DNA of 43,871 nt from Deltaproteobacteria bacterium UBA2385 (GTDB taxonomy: Bacteria; Myxococcota_A; UBA796; UBA2385), in NCBI GenBank assembly GCA_002343455.1, contig DDSR01000238.1, positions 1-43,871 of the forward strand. Direction: 5' to 3'. Position 1 is the first letter of the stretch, and each line of letters starts with the position of its first letter. The notes beneath the pieces were generated by a model. It made no database searches. It was not told the DNA's origin and saw only the letters and a program-made list of their open reading frames with translations. A program made the position numbers and the translations under genes. Below, piece after piece: positions 1,027-18,630 of this stretch.

Positions 1027-3366
1027 CTACCAGGAGCCGCCCGGACCGCCGTAGGCGCCCAGGTCGTTGCGGCTGCCGTCCGCGTCGTAGTAGGCCGGGC
1101 TGGGATGGCCCACGTCGATCGCGGGCGAGGTCGACCGCAGCACGAAGTCGTCGTTGCTCCAGTCGCCATCATCCGACCAGGCCGTGAAGCGCGGGTCGGA
1201 GCTGATGTTGCCGGTGGTCCCCTCCAGGCTGGTCCCGCCGCCCCAGTCGTCGTCGTTGCCGTAGACATCGCAGTACTGGATGCTGGACGACGCGCCCGAC
1301 TCGGTGCGAACGCCGTCCGAGCTGTTGAAGGCGATGATGCTGTTGAGCAGGGTGTTGGAGCTGGTGCCCGTGTACCAGACGCCGCCGCCATCGGTCGCCG
1401 CGCCACCGGTGACGGTGACGTTGACCAGGGTGCTGCTGCCTTCCAGCACCAGGAGCCCGCCGCCGTCCGTCGTCGCCTCGTTCCAGGCCAGCACGCCGTT
1501 GGTGAGGCTCAGCGAGCCGCCGTCGAGCTGGACGCCGCCCCCATCCGTGGCGGTGTTCTGGTACAGGCCGACCTGCTCCAGGGCCAGGGTCGAGCTGCTG
1601 TCGATGTAGATACCGCCGCCCTGGTCCGCGAAGTTCTCGGCGAAGGACACGTTCTGGAGGCTGGCGAGGCTGTCCAGGAAGCAGGCCCCACCGCCGTAGG
1701 AGTAGGTGTAGTACTCGTCGTTCCCGGAGGCCGAGTACTCCAGCTCGGGGAGCAGGTTCTCGACCACGATCAGGTCAAGCAGCGTCGGGTCGGAGCCGTC
1801 CACATACAGACCGCCACCGCACCAGGTGTAGAAGTAGTCCGTGCAGATGGTGCTGGAGGAGCAGGAGGTCGACTCGCTGGTGGTCTCCAGGTCGCCCTCG
1901 CCTCCGGTCAGCGTGAAGCCCTGCAGGGTCGCGGCGGAGGTCTCGCCCGAGGCGATGCGAACAACCGGCTCGGAGAGGCCCGTCGCGTCGATGATGGTCT
2001 CCGCGGCGCCCTCGACGCCTACGACGGAGATGTTGCGCCCGCCGAAGTCGACAGACTCGGTGTAGGTGCCAGCCAGGACGATCACGCACTCGTCGGCGCC
2101 ATTGACCGCCGCCTGGATGGTGTCGTAGGGGGCGCTGTAGCTGCCGTCACCCGAGCTGGACCCGCCCGAGGAGGCCGCGACCTGGGGCTCGGTGGCGTCA
2201 CCGTCGTTGCAGTCGTAGTCGTTCTCTGCGCCGTCACAGGCGAGGCGCTCCGTCCCCGGGGCGCCCAGGCCGTCCAGGTCGGCGTCCTCGAACAGCCAGA
2301 TCGCGTCCGCCGCCCCGACGTCCACCGTGCCGTCGCAGTCGTCGTCGATGTCGTTGCAGACCTCGATTCCGTCGGGGTTGACCGACGAGAGCGTGTCGTC
2401 GCAGTCGAGCGCGTTGGTCACCCAGCCATCGGTATCCACGCAGATCTCGGAGCTGACGGACTCGTCGCCGAAGCCGTCCCCGTCGGCGTCCTGCCAGGCG
2501 GTCCAGAGCAGGCCATCGTCGACCAGCTCGTTGCAGTCGTTGTCCAGGCCATCGCAGATCTCGGGGTTGCCTTCGAAGCGCGCCGCCTCGGTGTCGTCGC
2601 AGTCCGTGGGGGTGAGCGAGTAGCCCTCCAGCCCCTCGCAGCCGTAGTCCATGGTCTCGGGGTCGCCGTGACCATCGCCGTCCGCGTCGACGTAGAGCAG
2701 GACGAGCACGCCCTCGTCCACCTCGAAGTCGCAGTCGTTGTCCAAGCCGTCGCAGACCTCGGGGTTGCCCGGGAAGCGCGCCGCTTCGGTGTCGTCGCAG
2801 TCCGTGCTGTCCCAGACCCAGCCAGGCTCCGGATCGCAGCCCTCCCGTCGGTCCGTCGACTCGCCGTAGCCGTCGCCGTCCGCGTCCCGGAACAGCGTGC
2901 CCGAGATCCCGTCGTCCACGACCAGGTTGCAGTCGTTGTCCAGGCCGTCGCACACCTCGGGGTTGCCCGGGAAGCGCGCGGCGTCCGAGTCATCGCAGTC
3001 GGTGGGGAACTCGGAGTAGCCCTCGGGAGCCTGGCAGGCGAGCACCGTGTCGGTCGAGACACCAAAGCCGTCACCGTCCGCGTCGGCGTACCAGGTGCGC
3101 ATGTCGACCGCGCCCTCGTCGATCTCGCCGTCGCAGTCGTTGTCCACCCCGTCGCAGAACTCCACCGCGCCCGGGTAGACGGCCGGGTTGGTGTCGTCGC
3201 AGTCCTCGTCCGCGTTGAAACGATCCCCGTCCTCATCGACCGAGGAGCCGCCGTCGGAGGTGCTGCCGCCGTCGGTCTCCCCATCCCCCCCCTTGCCGTC
3301 CGTGCAAGCCAGGGTCGTACTGAGGAGGATCGCGAGCAGCCCGAGGGCCAGGTGAGAGGTGTTCAT
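1027..3366 (-). CDS. Lipoprotein with MopE metal-binding repeats and a parallel beta-helix (paralog A)
   Basis: 779 residues. A signal peptide ends in a lipobox (Thr-Leu-Ala-Cys, Cys21), so it is probably lipidated. Residues 22-45 form a Gly/Asp/Ser linker. Residues about 50-390 hold five MopE-type repeats, each with a DCDD segment, a Pro-Gly, then C(D/N)GxDNDC and an acidic tail; such repeats are annotated as putative metal-binding motifs. Residues about 405-770 look like a right-handed parallel beta-helix with Gly-Gly-Gly turns, ending in a SPAID motif and GAYGGPGGSW, like choice-of-anchor Q proteins. The ATG at 3366 has a GGAG element five bases upstream. It lies 15 bp after the paralog 3382-5298 on the same strand, so both are probably co-transcribed. 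Likely a surface adhesin or polysaccharide-binding protein; no catalytic residues were identified. Confidence 0.85.
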   Translation of the reverse strand: MNTSHLALGLLAILLSTTLACTDGKGGDGETDGGSTSDGGSSVDEDGDRFNADEDCDDTNPAVYPGAVEFCDGVDNDCDGEIDEGAVDMRTWYADADGDGFGVSTDTVLACQAPEGYSEFPTDCDDSDAARFPGNPEVCDGLDNDCNLVVDDGISGTLFRDADGDGYGESTDRREGCDPEPGWVWDSTDCDDTEAARFPGNPEVCDGLDNDCDFEVDEGVLVLLYVDADGDGHGDPETMDYGCEGLEGYSLTPTDCDDTEAARFEGNPEICDGLDNDCNELVDDGLLWTAWQDADGDGFGDESVSSEICVDTDGWVTNALDCDDTLSSVNPDGIEVCNDIDDDCDGTVDVGAADAIWLFEDADLDGLGAPGTERLACDGAENDYDCNDGDATEPQVAASSGGSSSGDGSYSAPYDTIQAAVNGADECVIVLAGTYTESVDFGGRNISVVGVEGAAETIIDATGLSEPVVRIASGETSAATLQGFTLTGGEGDLETTSESTSCSSSTICTDYFYTWCGGGLYVDGSDPTLLDLIVVENLLPELEYSASGNDEYYTYSYGGGACFLDSLASLQNVSFAENFADQGGGIYIDSSSTLALEQVGLYQNTATDGGGVQLDGGSLSLTNGVLAWNEATTDGGGLLVLEGSSTLVNVTVTGGAATDGGGVWYTGTSSNTLLNSIIAFNSSDGVRTESGASSSIQYCDVYGNDDDWGGGTSLEGTTGNISSDPRFTAWSDDGDWSNDDFVLRSTSPAIDVGHPSPAYYDADGSRNDLGAYGGPGGSW
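2197..3234 (-). repeat. Five MopE-type Asp/Cys repeats within paralog A
   Basis: About 35-residue units recur every 65-70 codons, separated by a second motif with DADGDG or a close variant. At DNA level the antisense text cagtcgttgtcca and close variants recurs at regular spacing. The DxDGDG segments resemble calcium-binding loops, and the paired cysteines may form disulfides or bind metal. Confidence 0.8.
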
Positions 3367-3381
3367 TCGAGCTCCAGTGGT

Positions 3382-5298
3382 CTACCAGGTGCCGTAGGGG
3401 CCGCCATAAGCGCCCTGGTCGTTGCGGGATCCGTCGTCGTCGTAGTACGCAGCGCTGGGGTTGCCGGCGTTGATGGAGACCGAGGTGCTGCCCAGGGCCA
3501 GGTCCTCGTTCGTCCAGTCGCCGTCGTCGGTCCAGGCCGAGAACTCGGGGTCGCCGCTGATGTTGCCCGAGCTGCCCTCGAGCGAGGCCCCGCCGCCCCA
3601 GTCGTCGTCGTTGCCGTAGACGTTGCTGTACTGGATCGTGGTGGACGAGCCAGCCCCGCGCAGCAGCCCGTCGGCCGTGTTGAAGGCGACGATGCTGTTG
3701 AGCAGCGTGTTGGTGGTGGTGCCGCTGTACATGACTCCACCGCCCGAGCTGGCCGATCCCCCCGCGACCGTCACGTTCACCAGCGTGCTGGTCCCGTCGA
3801 CGACCAGCAGACCGCCGCCGTCGTCCGTCGCCTCGTTCCAGGCGAAGATGCCGCCCGTCAACGAGAAGGTCCCGCCGTCGACGAGCACGCCGCCGGCATC
3901 GCTGGCCATGTTCGCGTACAAGGCCGACTGGACCATCGTGATGGAGGCGTCCTCGTCGATGTAGAAGCCGCCGCCCTGGTCGGCGCTGTTGTCGGCGATG
4001 ACGACGCCCTGGAGGGTGGCCGCGCTGTTCAGGAAGCAGGCCCCACCGCCGTAGGAGTAGGTGAAGTACTCGTCGTTGCCGACCGCAGCGTAGTCAGCCT
4101 CGGGCAGGACGTTTTCGACGAGCCAGAGGTCCTGCAGGGTCGGGTCGGCGCCATCCACGAAGAGGCCCCCCCCGCACCAGGTCTCGAAGTAGTCCGTGCA
4201 GACCGCGGTCGAGGAGCAGGCGCTGGCCTCGCTGGAGGACTCCAGGTCCCCCTGCCCGCCGCGCAGGGTGAAGCCGCTCAGCGAGGCGGCGAAGGACTCG
4301 CCACCGGCGAAGCGGACCACCGGCTGGGCGAGGCCGGTCGCGTCGATCACCGTCTCGGAGGGGCCCCCGACGCCGGTCACCGCCAGGTCGTTGCCGCCGA
4401 AGTCGATCGCCTCGGCGTAGGTGCCCGGGTAGACCGCCACGCAGGCGCTGGCCACGTTGATCGCCGACTGGATGTTGGAGAAGGGCGCGCCCAGGCTGCC
4501 GTCACCACCGGCCGATCCCATCGCCGCGTCCACGACCTTGGGCTCGGTTGCGTCGTAGTCGTCGCAGTCGTAGCCGTTGTCGACCCCCTCGCAGCCCAGC
4601 TCGAGGGTGGAGGGGTCACCCAGGCCGTCGCCGTCGTTGTCGGCGTAGAGCCAGGCCTCGTCCGTCGCGTCGACGTCGACCCGGCCGTCGCAGTCGTTGT
4701 CGACGCCGTCGCAGACCTCGGCCGCGTCCGGGTTGATCGCGGGGTCGCGGTCGTCGCAGTCCTGCTCGTCGGCCACCCAGCCCGGCGTCGCTTCACAGAC
4801 CTCGGTCGAGGTCGCGGGATCACCGAAGCCGTCGGAGTCCGCGTCCCGCCACACGACGTACATCAGCCCGTCGTCCACCGCGTCGTTGCAGTCGTTGTCG
4901 ACCCCATCGCAGACCTCCCGGTTGCCCGGGAACCGGCGGGGGTCGTTGTCGTCGCAGTCCACGCCTGCCGGCGAGCCGTCACCGTCCTCGTCGACCTCGC
5001 CGCCGCCGTCGCCGCCGCCGTCCCAGCCGCCGTCGCCGGTCCCGCCGTCGCCGCCCCCGTCGCCGCCCCCGTCGCCGGTGCCCCCGTCGCCGGTCCCGCC
5101 ATCGCCGGTCCCGCCATCGCCCGTGCCGCCGTCACCGGTCCCGCCGTCGCTGGTGCCGCCGTCGCTGGTGCCGCCGTCGCTGGTGCCGCCGTCGCTGGTG
5201 CCGCCGTCGCCGGTCCCGGTGTCCTTGCCACCGTTGCAGGCGAGGGTAGAGGCCAGGAGGAACGCGAGCAGGGAGGCGTTGAAGAACGAGGCGTGCAT
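3382..5298 (-). CDS. Lipoprotein with DGGT tandem repeats, MopE repeats and a parallel beta-helix (paralog B)
   Basis: 638 residues. The lipobox is Ser-Thr-Leu-Ala-Cys with Cys21. Residues 26-100 are almost entirely Asp-Gly-Gly-Thr/Ser, encoded by a 15-bp tandem repeat. Two MopE repeats follow (about 113-144 and 179-210), then a parallel beta-helix of about 360 residues closely similar to that of paralog A, ending in [10 protein letters not shown]. The ATG at 5298 has GGAG five bases upstream in the same GGAGCTC context as paralog A, so signal, ribosome site and helix were all duplicated. The two copies differ mainly in the number of MopE repeats (two against five) and in the length of the linker. 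The long linker could lift the helix through surface polysaccharide (inference). A possible promoter lies just upstream at 5353-5358. Confidence 0.85.
5074..5208 (-). repeat. 15-bp tandem repeat encoding [10 protein letters not shown]
   Basis: Nine consecutive five-codon units encode four DGGTS then five DGGTG, followed by more degenerate Asp/Gly codons down to about 5000. Four adjacent copies of cgctggtgccgccgt around 5148-5207 look identical. Because the unit is a multiple of three, copy-number change would alter linker length without shifting the frame. Confidence 0.9.
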
Positions 5299-5374: not shown

Positions 5375-6793
5375 TCAGCCCGTAGGCTCGACTGGGTCGG
5401 CCTCGACCTCAGCCTTGCAGAGCCGTCGGATGCGACTGACGGCCTCCTCCGAGACCGGCACCTGCCCGTCCTCGGACCGCAAGACGACCTTGCTCAGGCC
5501 TTGCAGGCGCACCAGCTGCCGATCGCTCAGACGCTCCACCCAGCCCGAGGGCCCTCGGATCTCGACCCGCTCGAAGCCCAGGCGCACACACTCCTGGAGC
5601 AGCTCGGCGATGGCGGGGTGGTCCAGGCTGGTCGCGTCGTCGACCAGCAGCTCGGTCCCGCCCTCCTGGGCCAGCCGACAGAGCCTCTGGCGGATGGTGC
5701 GGGTCGACTCTTCACCCGGGAAGGTCACCCTCAGCACCCGCGGGACCTCCCCGGCCGGCACCGCCGCCAGGGGATCCCCGCGCAGCGCCCCGCGCGCGGC
5801 CTGCCCGACGGCGAACGAGACCCGGGTGGCCGGCGCACGACCCGCGCGGGGCGGCGGAGGGGCCGTCGGGGGCGGATCCTGTGCTGGCGCGGGCGGGCCC
5901 TGCGCCGGCACGGCCCCCGCCCGCGCGGGGTGGCTGCACCGGTCATCGATCTCGGCGCGCCCGAAGCGCTCGACGTAGTCCGCGGGCGCTCCCGGGCAGC
6001 CGGGCTGGGATGCGCAGGCGGCGCACCCGGGGGCCGCGGGCGGCGCTGCCTGCCCGGCCGCGAGGTCCTGGAGGGCGAGGGTGGGCCCGATCCAGCCAAT
6101 CGGGGCCTGCAGCTGCCCGGCGGCGGAGCCGAGGGCGCAGGCCGGGAAGCCCTCGAAGCCAAGCTCGACCCCAGCGCTCCAGGCGGCGCGAGAGGCCCGC
6201 TCGAGCAGCGGCTCGGCCAGGCCCAGCCGCGGGGAGAGGGCGATGAACTGCGCGCGGGCAGGCCCTTGAGAGCGAACCCGCCGCACGATCACCGAGGTCG
6301 CGCCCAGCGCGGCCGCCAGGGCGACCGTCTCGGGGAGGTGGTCCATGGTGGGCCGCGTCAGGGTGATCTCGACCTGGACCTGGAGGCCCGCCTCCGCACA
6401 GCCACGAAGCGCACGCACGACCCGCTTGCCCGCGCCCGGGAGGTCCACCAGCCAGTCGTGGGCCTCCATTCGCGCCGAGTGCAGGGGGATGCGCACCCGG
6501 CGGAGCCCCCAGGCGCGGGCCTGCCGCGCCGCCTCGGGGCTGCTGAAGGCCAGGCCGTCGGTACACAGGCCTGGCGTCCCTCGATCCTCGAGGGCGCGGA
6601 CCAGGCTCGGCAGGTCGGCGCGCATCGCCGGCTCGCCTCCGCCCACCCAGAGCGGCGCTCGCGAGCGCGGCAGGCAGGCCAGGATCTCCTCGATCCCAGG
6701 GTCCTCGACCTCGGCTCCGAGGGGCAGATCCAGCCGACCCGCCCGCGCACCTCCCCTGCCCCGGCCCGTGACGAGCACTCCACGTTCAGGCAT
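5375..6793 (-). CDS. Degenerate radical SAM partner protein (pseudo-rSAM) with SPASM-like cysteines
   Basis: 472 residues. The fold reads like a radical SAM/SPASM protein, but the cluster motif is gone. Aligned with the CNERCPFC of the neighbouring enzyme, this protein has GRGRGGAR at residues 10-17, so the three cysteines are Gly, Gly and Arg. The SAM-contact motif GGGEP (51-55) is kept. An auxiliary-cluster-like cysteine set remains (Cys219, 257, 260, 266, 286). A Pro-rich linker (about 291-345) leads to a C-terminal domain (350-472) that resembles half of another radical SAM barrel. The ATG overlaps the end of the true radical SAM gene by 8 bp, so the two are translationally coupled and probably form a complex. 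It cannot perform standard SAM cleavage; substrate binding or an auxiliary-cluster role is inferred. Confidence 0.7.
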   Translation of the reverse strand: MPERGVLVTGRGRGGARAGRLDLPLGAEVEDPGIEEILACLPRSRAPLWVGGGEPAMRADLPSLVRALEDRGTPGLCTDGLAFSSPEAARQARAWGLRRVRIPLHSARMEAHDWLVDLPGAGKRVVRALRGCAEAGLQVQVEITLTRPTMDHLPETVALAAALGATSVIVRRVRSQGPARAQFIALSPRLGLAEPLLERASRAAWSAGVELGFEGFPACALGSAAGQLQAPIGWIGPTLALQDLAAGQAAPPAAPGCAACASQPGCPGAPADYVERFGRAEIDDRCSHPARAGAVPAQGPPAPAQDPPPTAPPPPRAGRAPATRVSFAVGQAARGALRGDPLAAVPAGEVPRVLRVTFPGEESTRTIRQRLCRLAQEGGTELLVDDATSLDHPAIAELLQECVRLGFERVEIRGPSGWVERLSDRQLVRLQGLSKVVLRSEDGQVPVSEEAVSRIRRLCKAEVEADPVEPTG

Positions 6794-8150
6794 CTCCCGA
6801 ATCCTCGCTCCACAGGATGCCCGGCACCAGCGCCGCCAGCGCCCGGCCGTGGTCGGCGACCGGGCCGACCAGCTGCACGGCGTGAACGCCCAGCGCCCGG
6901 CAGAGGCTCAGCACCCGCGCGGCGCGCACCGGGGAGTCCTCGCTCAGCCGCAGCCACAAGCGCCGACGCCGAGTGTCGCCCAGGCCCTGGTTGGCACGAT
7001 CGAGCCGCCGCATCCAGCTCAGCAGGGCGCGATCGGGTCGGCCCTGGGGGTCGAGCGAGGCGCCCTCCAGCTCGATCGCGAGGTCTGTCCACGGCCCGGC
7101 CCACAGGGCATCGAGCGGCTCCAGAGGCGCGGGGCAGCGCCTCCAGACCGTCCACTCCCCCGCCTCGGGGGCCCGATCGACACACTGACCCGGCCAGGCC
7201 GCCGCACCCTCCAGCCAGGGCGGCCGCACCCGCAGCGGCGCGGACAGCCCCCCGTCGGGACCCTGGTCCCAGACCGCGTGCCAGGCCCCACCGCAGCGCG
7301 TTCGCAGCGCGCAGCCCCGGCAGGGGTCCCCCTGGCGCTTGTCGCCGGCGTTCTCGATCCCGGGCCGCTCCTGCCAGCCGCCGAGCTCCGCCTCGACCGC
7401 CTCCACGCAGGAGTCGAGGCCGTCCTCCCAGCCCACGCACAGGGGCAGGCCGCAGTAGGGGTTGAGCAGCTCGATGCCGTGGGCGCGGGCCCGCGCGCGG
7501 GCGAGGCGGACCGAGGCGGAGAGGCGCGGGTAGTCCGGCAGCAGCTCGGGGTTCGCCGCGGCGCGCCCATGGGGCTGCACGGCCGAGAGGGAGACGCTGC
7601 GCACCCCGGGGAGGCGCTCGGCGACGAAGTCGATGTACGCGGCCACCCCCTCCTGGCTGAGGCGGGCGATGACCGGGTTGAGGGTGACCCGGACGCCGAC
7701 GGCCAGCAGGGCGTCGATGCCGGCGAGGCAGCGGGGGTAGGCGCCGGGCAGGCCGGCCAGGGTGTCGTGGTGGTCGGCCCGGTGCGAGAGCAGCGAGACG
7801 AAGGCGCTGGTGAGGCCCGCCTCCGCGAGCTCAGCGGCGTAGGCCGGGTCGATCAGGATTGCGTTGGTCTGCAGCTCGACGAAGGGCACGCCGGCCTGCC
7901 GGGCGCGGGCGATCAACGCCAGCAGCTTGCGGCGCAGCAAGGTCGGCTCGCCCCCCGAGATGGTCATCGTCTGCTGCCCGCTGTCCAGGAAGGCCTGGAG
8001 CTGCGCCTCGATCTCCTCGTCGGGAGGGGTCGGCCGCGGGTAGTCCTCGACCGGCACATTGCAGAAGGGGCAGCGCTCGTTGCAGGCCATCGTCAGCCGC
8101 AGCAGGCCCTTGGTCTGGTGGCTGCGCTCGGATGAGGCGGGGGTGTTCAC
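6786..8150 (-). CDS. Radical SAM protein with SPASM/auxiliary-cluster-like C-terminal cysteines
   Basis: 454 residues from a GTG start at 8150. The canonical radical SAM cluster motif CNERCPFC (Cys23, 27, 30) ligates the 4Fe-4S cluster that cleaves S-adenosylmethionine, and GGEPT (66-70) contacts SAM. Further cysteines at about 233, 238, 248, 277, 280 and 286, the last ending in CRGCALRTRCGG, resemble SPASM or twitch auxiliary clusters found in enzymes that modify ribosomal peptides and proteins. The last 150 residues are of unknown type. It overlaps the degenerate partner by 8 bp and is divergent, by 25 bp, from an HExxH peptide-hydroxylase-like gene. Together these suggest peptide or protein modification; the substrate is unknown and no small precursor gene was found. 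Confidence 0.85.
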   Translation of the reverse strand: MNTPASSERSHQTKGLLRLTMACNERCPFCNVPVEDYPRPTPPDEEIEAQLQAFLDSGQQTMTISGGEPTLLRRKLLALIARARQAGVPFVELQTNAILIDPAYAAELAEAGLTSAFVSLLSHRADHHDTLAGLPGAYPRCLAGIDALLAVGVRVTLNPVIARLSQEGVAAYIDFVAERLPGVRSVSLSAVQPHGRAAANPELLPDYPRLSASVRLARARARAHGIELLNPYCGLPLCVGWEDGLDSCVEAVEAELGGWQERPGIENAGDKRQGDPCRGCALRTRCGGAWHAVWDQGPDGGLSAPLRVRPPWLEGAAAWPGQCVDRAPEAGEWTVWRRCPAPLEPLDALWAGPWTDLAIELEGASLDPQGRPDRALLSWMRRLDRANQGLGDTRRRRLWLRLSEDSPVRAARVLSLCRALGVHAVQLVGPVADHGRALAALVPGILWSEDSGDA

Positions 8151-8175
8151 CCCGGCAGCGTATTACGATCGCCCG
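8151..8175. promoter_or_regulatory. 25-bp divergent intergenic region, possible overlapping promoters
   Basis: The radical SAM gene (GTG at 8150, minus) and the HExxH gene (GTG at 8176, plus) are separated by only 25 bp. The one AT-rich patch, cgtattacg at 8159-8167, can be read as a -10-like TATTAC on the plus strand and TAATAC on the minus strand. No Shine-Dalgarno sequence is visible for either start, so both messages may be leaderless or nearly so (inference). Confidence 0.35.
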
Positions 8176-9366
8176 GTGACGCAGCTGCCCGCCGCCTTCC
8201 TGACCCTGCCTGCCCCCGGAGACTCACGCTTCGCCTCGATCGAGCGCAAGGTCCGGCTGCTCGCCCTGCGGCAGCTGCTGCGCTCCACCGAGGGCCACCC
8301 CGCCCTCTACGAGGCCCTGTTCGCCGCCACCCGCGCCGACAAGGCGGTCCTGCCGGGCCTGCTGGCCAGCCCCGACCTGCTGACCCCGCTGCTCTGCCTG
8401 GAGGCCGGCCTCATCCCGCGGGAGCAGGCCCTCGCCTCGGTCGTGCCCGGCTTGCTTGCGGCGCTGGTCCAGCGGGGCCTGCTGCCCCACGCCCTGATCT
8501 GGGAGCGGCCGGTCGAGCTGCTGGTTCTGGGCACCCAAGCCTGGCGCTTCCAGCCCCCCGCCCGCGCCCTGGCGGCCTTCCCCGGCGGGGTCGAGCTGGA
8601 CCTCGGCGAGGCCGGACGGCTCCCCCTCGACACCCTGCCCGCGACACAGCCCTTCTCCCCCCTGGTGCCCGGCCTCCACCTCTCGACGCTGGACAGCAAC
8701 CCCCTGGCGATGACCGAGGCCCACCCCGACAAGCAGGGCAACGCCCTGGACCTGGGCGGCCGCAGCGAATCGGACTGGGTCGCCGCCCTCCAGCAGGCCC
8801 TGGCCCTGGTGCAGCAGGCCCTGCCGGAGTGGTGGGCCGAGCTGGGCCCCTCGCTGCGTCGCATCGTCCCGGTCGGCTACCAGCCCGAGCTGCACCTCTC
8901 GGCCAGCTACCGCGAGGCCCCCGGGCTGGCCTACCTCACCCTGCACCCAAGCCCGATCACCATGGCCGAGGCCATCGTCCACGAGGCCCAGCACAGCCGG
9001 CTCAACTGCCTGCTATGGCTGGACGCGGTGCTGGAGAACGGCTGGACGGACTGGACGGACTCGCCCGTCCGACCGGACCTGCGCCCCCTGATGGGCGTGC
9101 TGCTGGCGGTCCACGCCTTCGTGCCCGTCGCCGCCCTGCACGCGCGCCTCGCCGAGGCCGGCCACCCCCTCGCGCAAGGCCCCGACTTCGCCCGACGCCG
9201 CCTGCAGGTGCTCTCCGGCAACGCCCGCGGGTTGGCCATCGTCCAGGAGCGCGCCCGCGCCACCGCCCTCGGGCGCATCCTGGTCGACGAGCTGGCCCGC
9301 CTGCACCAGGCCCTCGTCGCGCGCGTCCCGACCGCCTTGCAGTCGGATGTGCTCCCTCCGGGCTGA
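8176..9366 (+). CDS. HExxH-motif protein, aKG-HExxH peptide beta-hydroxylase-like
   Basis: 396 residues. The frame is open from 8059, but a start there would run into the divergent gene, so GTG at 8176 is chosen (the protein then begins like MTQLPAAFLTLP). The key motif is IVHEAQHSRL with His269, Glu270 and His273, followed by DSPVRPDLRPLMG (295-307) and a further His in LAVHAF (313), a candidate third metal ligand. HExxH, then SPxRxDxRP, then a His/aromatic motif is characteristic of the HEXXH domain fused to or paired with FxsB-type radical SAM proteins (TIGR04267), some members of which are 2-oxoglutarate-dependent peptide beta-hydroxylases. It is therefore probably an oxygenase rather than a protease. 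It is followed, 34 bp later, by a zinc-ribbon membrane protein. Confidence 0.75.
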   Translation: MTQLPAAFLTLPAPGDSRFASIERKVRLLALRQLLRSTEGHPALYEALFAATRADKAVLPGLLASPDLLTPLLCLEAGLIPREQALASVVPGLLAALVQRGLLPHALIWERPVELLVLGTQAWRFQPPARALAAFPGGVELDLGEAGRLPLDTLPATQPFSPLVPGLHLSTLDSNPLAMTEAHPDKQGNALDLGGRSESDWVAALQQALALVQQALPEWWAELGPSLRRIVPVGYQPELHLSASYREAPGLAYLTLHPSPITMAEAIVHEAQHSRLNCLLWLDAVLENGWTDWTDSPVRPDLRPLMGVLLAVHAFVPVAALHARLAEAGHPLAQGPDFARRRLQVLSGNARGLAIVQERARATALGRILVDELARLHQALVARVPTALQSDVLPPG

Positions 9367-9400: not shown

Positions 9401-10147
9401 ATGAACTGCCCCCGCTGCGAGCACCATGGCCTGGACCCCGTCGCGGTCGACCGCTCTGTCCGCGTCGACTGGTGCAGCGGCTGCGGCGGCGCCTTCTACG
9501 AGACCGGCGAGCTCGACGCGGTGCTGGGAGCCTCCCCCGCGCTCGACGAGCGTTCAACGACCCCGGGCCTGAGCTGCCCGGCCTGTACGACCGCGATGGT
9601 CGAGCTGCGCTGGCCGGCCGGGGGGGCCGTCCGCATCGACGCCTGCCCCTCGTGCAAGGGGCACTGGCTGGATCGCGGCGAGCTGGTCCACCTCAAGGAG
9701 CACCTGGCCTCCACCCGCGGCTCCTCCTCCTCGGCCGGACCCGCCTCCCACATCCCGCTGAGCCGCCTGCCCGCGCAGGTCCGCACCCTGCAATGGCGCT
9801 GGGTCGCTGGCGGCGCGGCGGTCATGCTGCTGAGCTTCGCTTGCATCCTGGGAGGCCTCAGCTTCTTCGACCTGCTGGACGAGCTGCGCGACCGCTCCGG
9901 CACCGGCGAACAGGTCCTGGCCCTGTGGTCCCTGCTGCTCTGCTACCCCCTGGGGGGCCTGCTGATCGGGCGAGGCTCCTCCGGCTACACCATCTGGGAG
10001 GCCGCCCTCGCCGCGATCCCGACCACCCTGGTCCTGGGCCTGGCTGTGGGCGGCTTCAACCTCTTGCAGACCGTCGGGCTGATCCTGGCCGGTTTCGTGC
10101 TGGCGCTGCTGGGCGCCGTCGCGGGCGAGCGGCTGAGCGGCCGCTGA
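9401..10147 (+). CDS. Zinc-ribbon (TFIIB-type) membrane protein
   Basis: 248 residues from ATG 9401; an upstream ATG at 9347 would overlap the previous gene and adds residues before the first zinc-ribbon cysteine. Two zf-TFIIB-type ribbons are visible: CPRC with CSGC (about 3-30), and CPAC with CPSC followed by HWLDRGEL (about 60-95). About four hydrophobic segments follow (roughly 130-155, 165-190, 195-215, 220-245). Proteins with this layout occur widely in bacteria and have no firm function. It follows the HExxH gene by 34 bp on the same strand, so a shared transcript is likely, and it is convergent with the giant FG-GAP gene six bases away. A membrane partner or metal-handling factor for the modification locus is possible but unproven. 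Confidence 0.8.
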   Translation: MNCPRCEHHGLDPVAVDRSVRVDWCSGCGGAFYETGELDAVLGASPALDERSTTPGLSCPACTTAMVELRWPAGGAVRIDACPSCKGHWLDRGELVHLKEHLASTRGSSSSAGPASHIPLSRLPAQVRTLQWRWVAGGAAVMLLSFACILGGLSFFDLLDELRDRSGTGEQVLALWSLLLCYPLGGLLIGRGSSGYTIWEAALAAIPTTLVLGLAVGGFNLLQTVGLILAGFVLALLGAVAGERLSGR

Positions 10148-10153
10148 GCCCGA

Positions 10154-14710
<4,557 letters not shown>

Positions 14711-14735
14711 GGTGCCGCCAGGTCTGTAGGGGCCG

Positions 14736-16529
14736 CTACCTTACATCCCCCTCGGGCGACTGTCCAACTCCGGCCGCCCGCTCGAACCGACCCGCCATCG
14801 CGGCCTTGACCGCCTCGGCGTCCTCGGGCCAGGGCGCCGCGCCTCGCCAGGCCACCATCAGCTCGGGCTCCCAGCGCCAGGGCTCACCGTCTCGGGCGAT
14901 CTCCCCTTCAGCCACCGCATGGGTGAGCTCCAGCAAGGGCAGGTGTCCCAGGTCCCGCATCAAGGCCAGAAACCGACCCTGAACGCCGGGATCGACGAAG
15001 CGGAACTGCTCGCGCGTGGCGAAGGCGATGTGGTACCAGCTTGGACGGTGCCCGACCCCCGCCAGCTCCATCCGGGCCGCCATTCGGGACAGCATCTGGC
15101 TCGCCTCGCGGGCCATCCCCAGGCCGGGCACGTCCTGGCCGGGCAGCTGCGGCCGCTCGGGGGCGAAGCTGCCCCGGGGGTGCCGCAGGGTCAGCCAGTG
15201 GACGAAGAGGATCTCGACCGGCCCCTGGCCCTGCGGCCCTCGCAGCTCCTGACGCTCGTAGACGCCCTCGACCAGGACGTGCTCGACCCCGGCGGCCGTC
15301 CCCAGCAGCCGCATCCGGTCCCCCAGGGCGACCGTGGCGACCTCGACCCGCAGATCCTCGTAGCCCAAGCGCGCCACCGGCCCGAGCAGTCCGAAGGAGT
15401 ACAGCGCGTACTCGATGCCCTCGGCGCTGTAGTGCCCCAGCAGCTTCGGCGGGGAGGTCCTGCCGGGCCCGGCGAGGCGACCCAGGTCGGCCTCGGTGAT
15501 CCAGGGCTCTTCGGACTGCGAGCCGTTCAGGCGGCGCGGATCGAGGGAGCTGGCGATGGAGGCGAAGCGCCGGGCCAGCGGGTCGAGATCCGCCGGCAGA
15601 GGCCTTCGGCTGCCGAGGGCGAGGGCGAGGCCGGTGCCCGCCAGCAGCATCCAGGCGGTGGGGCCGTAGCCTCCGCCGGGCAGCCAGACCGAGGCGCAGC
15701 CCCGCAGGGCGCGGGCGACCGCCAGATCGCGGCGACGCACCCCGTCGGGGCTCATGCCGAGCTTGCCCAGGCGGTCCCCGGCCAGCACGTCTCCGCCAGC
15801 GATGACGAAGGCAAGCGCCGGCGCGGGCATCTGTTCGAGCAGCTGATCGAGGACGGTCAGGACCTCCTCGTCGGTGCCGCCAGGAAGCACTCGCTCCACC
15901 ACACGTTCGCCCTGGACCCCCCAGTCGGCGCCGGAGATCGAGCCGATCCAGGCCTTCGGATCCTTCTCCAGGCAGGCGGCCGTGCCGTCGGGGGCGTGGG
16001 CGTCCAGGTCCAGGACGACACACTGTCCGTCGAAGCCCTGGGCTCGCACCGCGGCGAGGGCGACGGCGATGTCGTTGACCGGGCACATCCCGCCGCCGAA
16101 GGCCGGGCCGGCGTGATGGAAGCCACCGAGCAGGTTGAGGGCGGGGCCCTTTCGATCGAGGGCCTCGTGGGTGGCCGCCAGGGTGGCCCCCGTGGCGAGG
16201 CGGACGGTGCGCATCACCTCGTCCACCGGCACATCCCACTCGGGCGCGGCGAAGATGCGCGCCAGGACCTCGGGCCGGGTGAGGCCTTCGAGGTGCTCGG
16301 GCGTGTGGACACGGCACAGCTCGCGGTAGCGGATCCGGCGCGGGATGCGGAGCTGGTGCGGACGGATCGCGCCGAGGTCGACCAGGGCCCAGGCGGCCAG
16401 CTCGGCCCGCCGCGGCTCGACCCCGCGATCGCCCTCCAGCGAGGTGATCGGCAGCCGGAACTCGGGGGCGAACCAGACCGGCAGCTCGGGGTCGTGCAAC
16501 AAGCGGGCGAGGGCCGTGCGGACGCTCAT
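14736..16529 (-). CDS. Histone-deacetylase-fold (acetoin utilization/HDAC-like) protein with long C-terminal extension
   Basis: 597 residues. The first half carries the hallmarks of zinc-dependent deacetylases: a GGFHHA motif with the His pair, VVLDLDAHAPDGTA with the Asp and His zinc ligands, AGGDVLAGDRLG with the third Asp, and LPGGGYG with the catalytic Tyr. The active site thus appears intact, although Asp-Ala-His-Ala differs slightly from the usual DxHxGDG. The last 270 residues or so are not recognised; they contain His- and Trp-containing segments such as SWYHIAF. The start at 16529 lies 8 bp after the ABC ATPase gene, so it is co-transcribed with the exporter. Substrate unknown: acetylated polyamine, sugar or protein are all possible. 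Typical relatives are 300-380 residues, so the extension is notable. Confidence 0.8.
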   Translation of the reverse strand: MSVRTALARLLHDPELPVWFAPEFRLPITSLEGDRGVEPRRAELAAWALVDLGAIRPHQLRIPRRIRYRELCRVHTPEHLEGLTRPEVLARIFAAPEWDVPVDEVMRTVRLATGATLAATHEALDRKGPALNLLGGFHHAGPAFGGGMCPVNDIAVALAAVRAQGFDGQCVVLDLDAHAPDGTAACLEKDPKAWIGSISGADWGVQGERVVERVLPGGTDEEVLTVLDQLLEQMPAPALAFVIAGGDVLAGDRLGKLGMSPDGVRRRDLAVARALRGCASVWLPGGGYGPTAWMLLAGTGLALALGSRRPLPADLDPLARRFASIASSLDPRRLNGSQSEEPWITEADLGRLAGPGRTSPPKLLGHYSAEGIEYALYSFGLLGPVARLGYEDLRVEVATVALGDRMRLLGTAAGVEHVLVEGVYERQELRGPQGQGPVEILFVHWLTLRHPRGSFAPERPQLPGQDVPGLGMAREASQMLSRMAARMELAGVGHRPSWYHIAFATREQFRFVDPGVQGRFLALMRDLGHLPLLELTHAVAEGEIARDGEPWRWEPELMVAWRGAAPWPEDAEAVKAAMAGRFERAAGVGQSPEGDVR

Positions 16530-16537
16530 GGGTCGCC

Positions 16538-17293
16538 TCAGGGTTCGAGGGATCGCATCAGCCGCCGGACCTCGGCCATCTCGCTGGCCGGCAGGTCGGC
16601 CGTGACCCGGCCCTTCTGGACGACGACGACCCGGTCGGCGACCCGGCCCAGGGTGTCCAGCACATGGGTCGAGAGCAGCACCGTCGCGCCCTGCCGGCAG
16701 CGCTCGGCCAGGGTCTCGAGCACCCGCTCCGCGCTGGGCGGATCCAGGCCGTTGAGGGCCTCGTCCAGCATCAGGACCGGCGGCTCGGCGACCAGGGCGC
16801 AGGCCAGCGCGGTCTTGCGGTGCATGCCCTGGCTGTACTCGTGGATCAGGCGGTCGGCGTCCTCACCCAGCCCAGCCAGGACGAGCGCCTCCTCGACCCG
16901 CGCCGGATCCGGCTCGACGGTGGGGTCGGCGGCCCGGATGCGCGCGGCGAAGGTGATCATCTCGCGGGCGCTGAGGTACTCGTACAGGCGGGGGTGCTCG
17001 GGCACGACCCCCATCTTCCGGCGGGCCCCCTCGGGATCGGCGGAGACATCGACGCCCATGACGAAGGCCGCGCCCGAGGTCGGCTGGAGCTGGCCGGTCA
17101 ACATCCGGAAGGTGGTGCTCTTTCCGGCGCCGTTGGGTCCAACCAGTCCGACGAGCTGCCCCTGCGGCACGCGAAAGGACACCGAGTCGACGGCGACGAC
17201 CCGGCCGAACTCCTTTCGGAGCTCCCTTGCTTCGATCGCAGCGACCTCGATCGCGGCGACCTCGGGCGGGGTTGGCTCAGGTGCGGTGCTCAT
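16538..17293 (-). CDS. ABC transporter ATP-binding protein
   Basis: 251 residues from ATG 17293; the frame is open further upstream but that part is an antisense-like shadow of the permease gene. Walker A is GPNGAGKST, the Q-loop region and an EYSQGM signature follow, Walker B is VLMLDEALNGLD, and the switch His is in LLSTH. The YSQGM form of the signature and the size are typical of ABC-2 type exporters. The ATG overlaps the TGA of the permease gene as ATGA, so translation is coupled. It energises the membrane protein of 17290-18630; the substrate is unknown. Confidence 0.93.
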   Translation of the reverse strand: MSTAPEPTPPEVAAIEVAAIEARELRKEFGRVVAVDSVSFRVPQGQLVGLVGPNGAGKSTTFRMLTGQLQPTSGAAFVMGVDVSADPEGARRKMGVVPEHPRLYEYLSAREMITFAARIRAADPTVEPDPARVEEALVLAGLGEDADRLIHEYSQGMHRKTALACALVAEPPVLMLDEALNGLDPPSAERVLETLAERCRQGATVLLSTHVLDTLGRVADRVVVVQKGRVTADLPASEMAEVRRLMRSLEP

Positions 17294-18630
17294 GGCAGGC
17301 CTCCAAAGGCGCGCAGCGTGAAGCTCGAGACGAGGGCCCAGACCAGGACCGCGATCGGCAGCCAGCCCCAGATCGAGCGGGCCCCCCACCGACGGGCGAG
17401 GCCGGCGCAGGCCAGGGAGGCCAGGGCCGCCATGGCCTGCAGCACCAGGGCCGGGAGCAGGACGACGAGGCCCTGGCGTACGAGCAGGGCGAGCAGCGGG
17501 GGGAGGATGGCCCCCTGGGCGTAGGCGAAGGCGACCGCGGCCCGCGCCGCCATCACCCGGGCCGGCTGCACGCCCAGCGCCCGGTCCAGCCAGGCGGGAT
17601 CCCCATCGGCGAGGCGACCGGGCAGGGCGGCGATCACCAGCACGGCCGCACCCGAGACCGCCACGACCGCTGCCGGGGCGGCCGGGTCCGCGCTCCAGCC
17701 GGCGAAAGCACCGACCAGGCCCAGGCCCCAGGCGCCGGTCGCCCAGGTGCGCAGGCGGCGCCAGCCCTGGCGCAGGGCCCGCAGCAGCTCCGGGCGCCCT
17801 GTGGCCAGCCACTCCAGGTAGACCCGGCGGTCCTCCTCGCCCTCGTCCGAGCCCGCCCAGGCGGCGTCGACCTCGGCCAGCAAGGAGCTGGCGCGGACCC
17901 AGGTGCGCTCGGACAGCGGCAGCGACAGCGCGAAGGCCACCACCCCGACCGCGGGCGGCAGGAGCAGGAAGGCCCAGCCCGGCGCCCAACCCTGCAGACC
18001 CGCCGCGCTGCCCGAGCTGGCCAGCAAGAGGGCCAGACCGGCGACCGCCAGCACGACCCCCGGGGCGTAGATCAGCGCGGCCTGCATCCGGGGGTTGCTG
18101 CCCCGCAGCAGCTCCAACACCAGGGCCAGTCGCGGGCTGAAGGCGGCCTGCACGGCGCCGAGGTTGACCAGGAAGCCGAGGCCGAAGCCGCAGACGAAGG
18201 CCCCGAGCACCAGCGCGGCGGCGCCCAGGAAGGCCAGGGTGTGGCCCGCCAGCGCCAGCGGCACCAGCAGCAGGATGGCCATGGCCGGCACGACCGCCTG
18301 CTCGCGCAGCAGCCGCAGGGCGATGGCCTGCAGCAGCAGGCGGGGCTGGACGGGGTGGACGTCGAGCACCTCGCGATCGGGGCCCCGCACGATGGCGTCG
18401 TAGGTCGACAGCGCCATCACGCAGACCACCAAGGCGGCGAGGCGAAAGGCGATCGCCTCGGTCCCGGCGGCGACGACCGCCAGCGACGCGGGACCGTCCA
18501 GGAAGCCAAGCAGCACGGGCCGGGCCAGCGGCGCGGCCAGCCCCGCGGCGGCCAGCGCCAGCAGCCAGGTAGGGCCCCGGGCCTTGCGGGCACGGATCCG
18601 GCGATGGACCTCGCGATATGGATTGCGCAC
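17290..18630 (-). CDS. ABC-2-type exporter membrane subunit
   Basis: 446 residues, highly hydrophobic, with about ten predicted membrane segments separated by short Arg-rich loops and one larger cytoplasmic loop near residues 235-290 (acidic, SDEGEEDRR). No enzyme motif is seen. The gene directly precedes and overlaps the ABC ATPase gene, which identifies it as the permease. The N-terminus (MRNPYREVHRRIRARKARG) is strongly positive, fitting a cytoplasmic end. First gene of an apparent operon permease-ATPase-deacetylase-like, possibly with the giant surface protein. Confidence 0.8.
   Translation of the reverse strand: MRNPYREVHRRIRARKARGPTWLLALAAAGLAAPLARPVLLGFLDGPASLAVVAAGTEAIAFRLAALVVCVMALSTYDAIVRGPDREVLDVHPVQPRLLLQAIALRLLREQAVVPAMAILLLVPLALAGHTLAFLGAAALVLGAFVCGFGLGFLVNLGAVQAAFSPRLALVLELLRGSNPRMQAALIYAPGVVLAVAGLALLLASSGSAAGLQGWAPGWAFLLLPPAVGVVAFALSLPLSERTWVRASSLLAEVDAAWAGSDEGEEDRRVYLEWLATGRPELLRALRQGWRRLRTWATGAWGLGLVGAFAGWSADPAAPAAVVAVSGAAVLVIAALPGRLADGDPAWLDRALGVQPARVMAARAAVAFAYAQGAILPPLLALLVRQGLVVLLPALVLQAMAALASLACAGLARRWGARSIWGWLPIAVLVWALVSSFTLRAFGGLP

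Follow-up and report, generated by a model that had tools for sequence, protein, structure and literature searches.

The His-Xaa-Ser (HXS) system, a class of ribosomally synthesized and post-translationally modified peptides (RiPPs), has been known from sequence for more than ten years and, to our knowledge, no product of it has been described. In the accessible part of PMC9062424 the system is attributed to Haft and Basu, and HxsB and HxsC are mentioned as putative maturases of the His-Xaa-Ser peptides. Hxs genes are also listed in a genome description (PMC8446631, accessible in part). A second group of interest are the alpha-ketoglutarate (aKG)-HExxH peptide hydroxylases. Excerpts of PMC12636437 describe that ChlH hydroxylates His and Asp and that it requires a preinstalled cyclophane before hydroxylation. 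An excerpt of PMC13060819 reports activity of the family on Phe, Gln and Pro as well. Hydroxylation takes place mostly at the beta-carbon, and PflC is in addition described to perform alpha-hydroxylation and backbone cleavage (PMC12636437, PMC13060819, both in excerpt). In the part of the literature covered by our search, no paper was found which names both "His-Xaa-Ser" and "HEXXH" or joins HXS to an HExxH enzyme. Here, we describe three neighbouring genes of Deltaproteobacteria bacterium UBA2385, encoding a radical S-adenosylmethionine (SAM) enzyme (rSAM), a related protein without the SAM cluster cysteines ("partner") and an aKG-HExxH-type protein, which appear to bring both groups together. 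With a probability of roughly 0.72, they form the oxidation module of an HXS system whose genes are distributed across two or more contigs of the metagenome-assembled genome.

The analyzed stretch of DNA, in the following called the window, is an entire contig of 43,871 bases (DDSR01000238.1, here C472) from a draft genome of 6.76 Mb, which consists of 496 contigs and is 87.6% complete. G-numbers refer to genomes (G000 is that of the window), L-numbers to loci, f-numbers to families and C-numbers to contigs. The features of the module are:

5375..6793, minus strand: cluster-less (pseudo) radical SAM protein of 472 aa, the partner; PF04055 28.9 bits, GGEP kept, CxxxCxxC absent
5996..6025, minus strand: C-x2-C-x5-C of the partner (C257, C260, C266), putative auxiliary Fe-S site; invariant in 16 of 16 orthologs
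6786..8150, minus strand: radical SAM enzyme of 454 aa, the window rSAM; PF04055 70.5 bits
8061..8084, minus strand: CNERCPFC cluster motif of the window rSAM, residues 23-30; C23, C27 and C30 invariant in 13 of 13
8176..9366, plus strand: aKG-HExxH-type peptide beta-hydroxylase, 396 aa from GTG 8176; TIGR04267 95.2 bits, cut-off 40
8980..8994, plus strand: HEAQH motif of the HExxH protein, residues 269-273; H269, E270, Q272 and H273 invariant in 60 of 60
9061..9096, plus strand: SPVRPDLRPLMG motif of the HExxH protein, residues 296-307; conserved in 60 aligned homologs

The HExxH gene is divergent from the window rSAM gene, with 25 bases between both starts, and the ATG of the partner overlaps the end of the window rSAM gene by 8 bases. 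The gaps from the three genes to the adjacent called genes measure 25 to 76 bases. An earlier note on this DNA had already recognized the HExxH protein, the CNERCPFC enzyme and its coupled partner devoid of cluster cysteines, and all three assignments stand. Its proposal of an undescribed modification system holds in so far as a peptide-modification module is present. That this module is isolated and undescribed is, however, not supported, as its genes sit in the HXS clusters of related genomes.

The HExxH protein matches TIGR04267, the family of aKG-HExxH peptide beta-hydroxylases, with an E value of 4.5e-27. The same family is matched by all 60 aligned HExxH sequences, itself included (E <= 0.001), while none of the 60 matches any Pfam family (E <= 0.01), hence no metallopeptidase family either; a better fit to a metalloprotease, considered in the earlier note, was not observed. 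Besides the HExxH motif, S296, P297, V298, R299, P300, D301, R303, P304 and G307 are invariant in the 60 homologs, and L302 is present in at least 90% of them. The SPVRPDLRPLMG motif aligns with SPWREDLRP of ChlH, whose solved structure (PDB 8s5f) is matched at E 7e-5. A second structure, PDB 22nu, whose chain was deposited as "Radical SAM core domain-containing protein", is matched at E 7e-7. Judged by the family consensus MxxLPxAFLxLPxPGD, the start of the gene is most likely GTG 8176; the database copy (P0004) has 407 aa and starts farther upstream.

The window rSAM belongs to the radical SAM superfamily, based on the CNERCPFC motif and a PF04055 score above the cut-off of 29.5 bits. Its best NCBIfam match is HxsC (TIGR03977) with 87.5 bits, below the cut-off of 267.9, and HxsC4 (NF038332) reaches 59.6 bits (cut-off 500). 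In all 13 aligned orthologs C23, C27, C30, C233, C238 and C277-x2-C280-x5-C286 are invariant. The SPASM-like cysteines described earlier are thus present as a CX2CX5C motif plus two further conserved residues, but no SPASM model of Pfam matches the window rSAM or the partner at E <= 1. The earlier note had also drawn a relation to the FxSxx-COOH systems, i.e., an FxsB-like cyclophane and hydroxylation system whose parts are split into separate genes. The HExxH domain is common to ChlH and the rSAM-annotated chain of PDB 22nu, which is in line with this idea. However, FxsB (TIGR04269, cut-off 370) is not among the best 25 families listed for the window rSAM, of which the 25th scores 30.3 bits, and the linked precursors are His-Gly-Ser (HGS) repeats. 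The relation is therefore not supported, and such a split system appears very improbable.

For the distribution of the genes, 282 Myxococcota genomes were searched; the Fisher tests ignore phylogeny. The HExxH protein has matches at E <= 0.001 in 77 genomes, 70 of them with strong matches (79 matches, the weakest at 3e-38). Ten weak matches (E 1e-11 to 9e-4), which are the sole matches in seven genomes, were excluded from the strong count. HxsB exceeds its cut-off in 96 of the 282 genomes. Strong HExxH matches go along with such an HxsB in 69 of 70 genomes, whereas 27 of the 212 others have one (p 4e-42). The sole strong-HExxH genome without HxsB, G151, has an HxsA4 fragment, a short rSAM and the three genes of the window side by side. 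The short rSAM ("MANLGY..") shows a similar distribution, being found at E <= 1e-40 in 97/282 genomes; among them are 91 of the 96 HxsB genomes and 69 of the 70 HExxH genomes. Window-type rSAMs occur in 30 genomes at E <= 1e-30 and in 18 at E < 1e-100; 17 of these 18 have HExxH and 17 have HxsB.

HExxH and HxsB are also linked physically. They share one contig in 22 of the 70 genomes, with distances below 20 kb in 21 cases and of 31 kb in one. With genomes of several Mb and about 1.3 copies of HxsB in each of those that carry it, chance alone should, by our own estimate, place fewer than one of the 79 HExxH matches within 20 kb of HxsB. An HxsA4 match is found some 4 kb away from HExxH in G168 and G218. 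For 60 of the 70 HExxH-positive genomes, stretches of at most 20 kb surrounding HExxH or another gene of the cluster were read (in G274 and parts of L037, genes were taken from open reading frames and tblastn matches), and many of the stretches around HExxH are clusters with several rSAM genes. Locus L038 exceeds the curated cut-offs for HxsB (484.7 bits, cut-off 370), HxsA4 (90.3, cut-off 55), HxsD (51.7, cut-off 50) and the HxsD-like protein (52, cut-off 41). A single 17.7-kb contig of G274 carries HxsA4, HxsB, a short rSAM, a long rSAM, a pseudo-rSAM, a window-type rSAM and HExxH.

HExxH adjoins the window-type rSAM in 7 of the 17 genomes having both; the relatives in the six genomes other than the window's show 51 to 65% identity to the window rSAM. 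The two genes are divergent in the window genome, G068, G170, G274, G151 and G115 and convergent in G019. An ortholog of the partner adjoins HExxH in nine genomes, divergently in G160, G003, G246, G048, G214 and G251 and convergently in G141, G218 and G179. All three genes are found together in three genomes, the window's, G274 (with a short open frame between partner and rSAM) and G151 (where the contig end cuts the partner), so that the earlier concern that they might never co-occur elsewhere did not come true. In G241, which belongs to the same genus, the rSAM and partner frames overlap on one contig and HExxH is located on another. The relatives place the window genes inside His-Xaa-Ser clusters, and the small substrate gene is expected to encode an HxsA4-type (HGS)n peptide, located here on another contig.

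It could be argued that the trio works independently, as a RiPP or protein-modification module with its own substrate elsewhere, and that its link to HXS reflects only shared ancestry in Myxococcota. Window-type rSAMs are indeed located off the HxsB contig in the window genome, G241, G198, G208, G232, G104 and G260 and about 88 kb away from HxsB in G048, the genome is highly fragmented, and the association tests are uncorrected for relatedness. However, the near-complete co-occurrence of HExxH with HxsB and their 22 shared contigs speak against independence. In G274, G170 and G115, moreover, window-type rSAM, HExxH, HxsB and HxsA4 lie on one contig, and the short gaps in the window leave no room for a further precursor between the three genes. 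We consider such a module unlikely.

In the window's own genome, HXS genes were found on contig C489. It encodes CNNRC, CPERC and PapB-like rSAMs, HxsB (G000:C489:9218-10627; 496.4 bits, cut-off 370), an HxsD-like protein (48.1 bits, cut-off 41), HxsD (61.2 bits, cut-off 50), a twin-arginine translocation (Tat)-signal protein, a large protein with immunoglobulin (Ig)-like domains as well as a short and a long rSAM. Upstream of the PapB-like rSAM, an HxsA4-like leader is followed by CSHGSHGS, where a run of N interrupts the repeat. In G241, HxsA4 scores 82.8 bits (cut-off 55). The tetranucleotide composition of C472 and C489 correlates with r = 0.991, compared to 0.84 to 0.97 for ten loci of other genomes. 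Counting the groups found in HXS clusters, the genome has seven rSAMs, HxsB and the window rSAM included, and one cluster-less rSAM.

Further observations concern the surroundings of the HXS genes. A short Tat-signal protein with a conserved "LMDGG.G..TDE.LGR"-like block is located just before HxsD in many HXS clusters (L080, L090, L095, L102 and others; e.g., L080:11380-11904). The copy of L038 has no NCBIfam match and that of L080 no Pfam match. Possibly, this protein is exported as a partner of the peptide. Large Ig-like-domain proteins adjoin the HXS genes in L080 (11898-14210 and 15408-19100), possibly as surface anchors or scaffold for the repeat peptide.

Several points weigh against the assignment to HXS. 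In the own genome, the trio and the HXS genes lie on separate contigs, C472 and C489. The best own-genome HxsA4 match (E 2.5e-5, without a listed position) is below the family cut-off, probably because the run of N cuts the repeat. The cut-off of HxsC is reached by none of the rSAMs put to NCBIfam; the best own scores are 93.8 bits for the short rSAM and 87.5 for the window rSAM, a comparison that leaves out the own PapB-like, CPERC and CNNRC rSAMs. The 27 HxsB genomes without a strong HExxH match imply that HExxH is optional or was missed in drafts. None of the seven genomes with only weak HExxH matches has HxsB over the cut-off, and if they are counted the co-occurrence falls to 69/77. HExxH and HxsB never share a contig in the genomes of family f12. 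Finally, the (HGS)n core of the precursor is alike in HExxH-positive and HExxH-negative genomes, and therefore the hydroxylated residue cannot be read from the precursor. Taking both sides together, the three genes are still best explained as satellites of the known RiPP class HXS.

The collection of precursors was confined to frames containing four or more H[GAS]S units. This gave 49 distinct frames with a tail of 6 to 49 His-Xaa-Ser units. Very long HGS precursors of about 50 units with scattered HAS units were seen in G048 (L097:4585-5220) and G117 (L143:8980-9612). The HGS run is usually opened by HCS, and where the end of the repeat is readable (39 HExxH-positive and 8 HExxH-negative genomes), the run of mostly HGS units is followed by HGQW or HGSW. 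The Gln of the C-terminal HGQW was considered as the target of HExxH and rejected as a rule, with 24 QW and 15 SW ends in positive genomes compared to 2 QW and 6 SW ends in negative ones (Fisher p 0.12, 47 genomes). The likeliest hydroxylated residue would be His, by analogy to ChlH, which hydroxylates His and Asp.

The HExxH enzyme might also go beyond hydroxylation and cleave the backbone of HxsA4 oxidatively, freeing the repeat domain from the leader or trimming the end. PflC and PosC of the same family are described in the accessible part of PMC12636437 to hydroxylate Gln runs and to cut the backbone oxidatively at ARMD. The sharp junction, usually ..HCSHGS.., and the fixed HG[QS]W end of the HxsA4 proteins would suit such a reaction, as would the lack of a protease match among the eight C489 proteins put to Pfam, the search being limited to these eight. 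Against it, AR[MLIV]D is found in none of the 49 precursor frames, neither within 140 residues before the repeats nor after them, and HExxH-negative systems share the same junction and end. Cleavage by this enzyme is a genuine, though rather unlikely, alternative.

The partner was compared with the rSAMs of the sister clusters. Its match to PF04055 covers residues 48-159 and lies barely under the cut-off; TIGR04347 (pseudo_SAM_Halo) gives 31.2 bits (cut-off 525). A tree of 178 rSAM rows, which omits the rows of L051, L052 and L054, resolves eight groups with support values of 87 to 100: HxsB, PapB-like, short, long, CNN[RK]CVFC, CPERC, window-type and the group of the partner. Such quick trees carry long branches, and the tree warnings name several rows of the partner's group. 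Three "pseudo" rows, being C-terminal pieces of long rSAMs, were dropped from this group, and the CDNxCxFC rows of G239 and G216, which shifted between two trees, were not counted. After these removals, 11 genomes from several families, the window's among them, contribute cluster-less proteins to it. Family f4 contributes eight intact members and a cluster-less one, and family f12 five further cluster-less proteins, all from HExxH-positive genomes. Partner orthologs without CxxxCxxC are present in 17 sampled genomes.

Judged from tree and alignment, sister clusters contain an intact rSAM to which the partner is orthologous, the partner being the degenerate form. Among 16 aligned members of its group (7 cluster-less and 9 intact, including two unsure rows), C219 and C257-x2-C260-x5-C266 are invariant, and these are the sole cysteines for which this is the case. 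Since degenerate and intact orthologs share them alike, it is suggested that a metal site has been kept and not merely a leftover fold. The cluster-less ortholog of G179 (L096:11073-12185) belongs to f4, where its sisters are intact. Its loss of the cluster looks like a second, separate event. The simplest account starts from an assumed intact ancestor, whose SAM cluster would have disappeared on at least two occasions while the C-terminal metal site was kept.

A degenerate protein of this type could also act as a regulator or inhibitor instead of a catalytic partner. A precedent is PesX, a protein like the multinuclear non-heme iron-dependent oxidative enzymes (MNIOs), which is a pseudoenzyme of an aKG-HExxH RiPP cluster without the iron-binding residues and inhibits its enzyme relative, the MNIO PesH, according to an excerpt of PMC13060819. 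The persistence of cluster-less copies in the 17 genomes would agree with this role. In contrast, the invariant cysteines suggest a kept metal site, and the gene overlap suggests coupled production with the rSAM, so that a regulatory role seems unlikely, though less so than cleavage.

Two further ideas about the partner were not supported. The first, that its degeneration goes along with replacement by a window-type rSAM, conflicts with its distribution: degenerate copies occur together with a window-type rSAM (window, G241, G048, G274 and G151) and where no copy of that enzyme was found (G160, G003, G246, G251, G214, G024 and G179), and intact orthologs also occur with it (G208 and G104). According to the second, the rSAMs beside HxsB in HExxH-negative genomes would be intact orthologs of the partner. 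Our own hidden Markov model put 32 rows of loci L120-L159 in the partner's group, 24 from 25 HExxH-negative loci and 8 from 15 positive ones. In the later tree, only five rows of these loci, all of family f12 and from HExxH-positive genomes, group with the partner, and none of the 24 HExxH-negative rows does.

For the enzymes acting on HxsA4, the order of their steps, the role of the partner and the site of hydroxylation, we infer the following route. The precursor on C489 would be HxsA4-like, consisting of a leader followed by a (His-Gly-Ser)n tail. The window rSAM, with an active cluster and the C-terminal CX2CX5C motif, probably abstracts hydrogen from the repeats. The partner, whose SAM-cleaving cluster is lost and whose C-terminal cysteines are kept, is probably a subunit for binding or electron relay. 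The HExxH enzyme, predicted to depend on Fe(II) and aKG, would then hydroxylate side-chain carbons of the repeats, most likely the beta-carbons of His. Perhaps it acts on them only once the rSAM has done so, in line with the preinstalled cyclophane reported to be needed by ChlH (PMC12636437, in excerpt). By analogy to the characterized family members, it most likely hydroxylates the HGS repeats after or together with several rSAMs.

A more far-reaching scenario can only be put forward tentatively. Myxococcota might make a (His-Gly-Ser)n polymer of roughly 6 to 50 units, most of which are rewritten by an oxidation line. This line would comprise up to seven distinct rSAMs, a cluster-less rSAM that retains a metal site and is indispensable for electron relay or docking, and a His-directed aKG-HExxH enzyme. 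If this is true, the outcome would be a novel kind of biopolymer, densely modified and possibly able to bind metals, rather than a small RiPP.

The assignment ties HXS to a hydroxylase family of known chemistry and leads to a measurable prediction of +16 Da per modified repeat unit. It also provides a defined set of partner enzymes for co-expression and thereby facilitates tests of a peptide system with unknown chemistry. The pseudo-rSAM with intact orthologs in sister clusters offers a natural comparison for the roles of auxiliary clusters and inactive subunits in rSAM chemistry.

In the remaining window, three long proteins (1027-5298 and 10154-14710) with Asp/Cys repeats of the type "DCDD..PGA.EVCDG.DNDCDG..DE" and lipoprotein-like starts are encoded; one of them contains a long stretch of what we take to be FG-GAP-like repeats. 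At 9401-18630, a histone-deacetylase-domain protein (PF00850, 92.8 bits) is found beside ABC transporter genes. In G241 and G160, zinc-ribbon, deacetylase and ABC genes adjoin HExxH as well.

Compared to known systems, the HExxH protein shares the TIGR04267 domain and the HExxH and SPxRxDLRP motifs with ChlH/ChlBH, BpmH/BipH, PflC/PosC and PesO. Unlike all of these, it is linked to an HGS-repeat precursor. ChlH is fused to an rSAM in ChlBH, and in FxsB/FxSxx-COOH systems the HExxH domain is fused to the FxsB rSAM, whereas the window HExxH protein is encoded by a separate gene, likewise beside an rSAM. The partner resembles the pseudo-SAM/SPASM protein of TIGR04347 and PesX in being a degenerate member of an enzyme family that is kept in the genome or gene cluster; PesX, however, is MNIO-like and not an rSAM. 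The long rSAM of the cluster has its best NCBIfam match in HxsC4 (NF038332, rSAM_rare_HxsC4) with 83.4 and 88.9 bits (cut-off 500), and the linked precursor type is HxsA4. With HXS (HxsA-D, NCBIfam TIGR03976-03979; HxsA4, NF038313), the own genome shares HxsB, HxsD and the HxsD-like protein over their cut-offs. It differs by its seven rSAMs, none of the tested ones reaching the HxsC cut-off, by the cluster-less rSAM and by the aKG-HExxH hydroxylase. HXS itself is a known class, and the hydroxylase together with the cluster-less rSAM would represent a variant of it.

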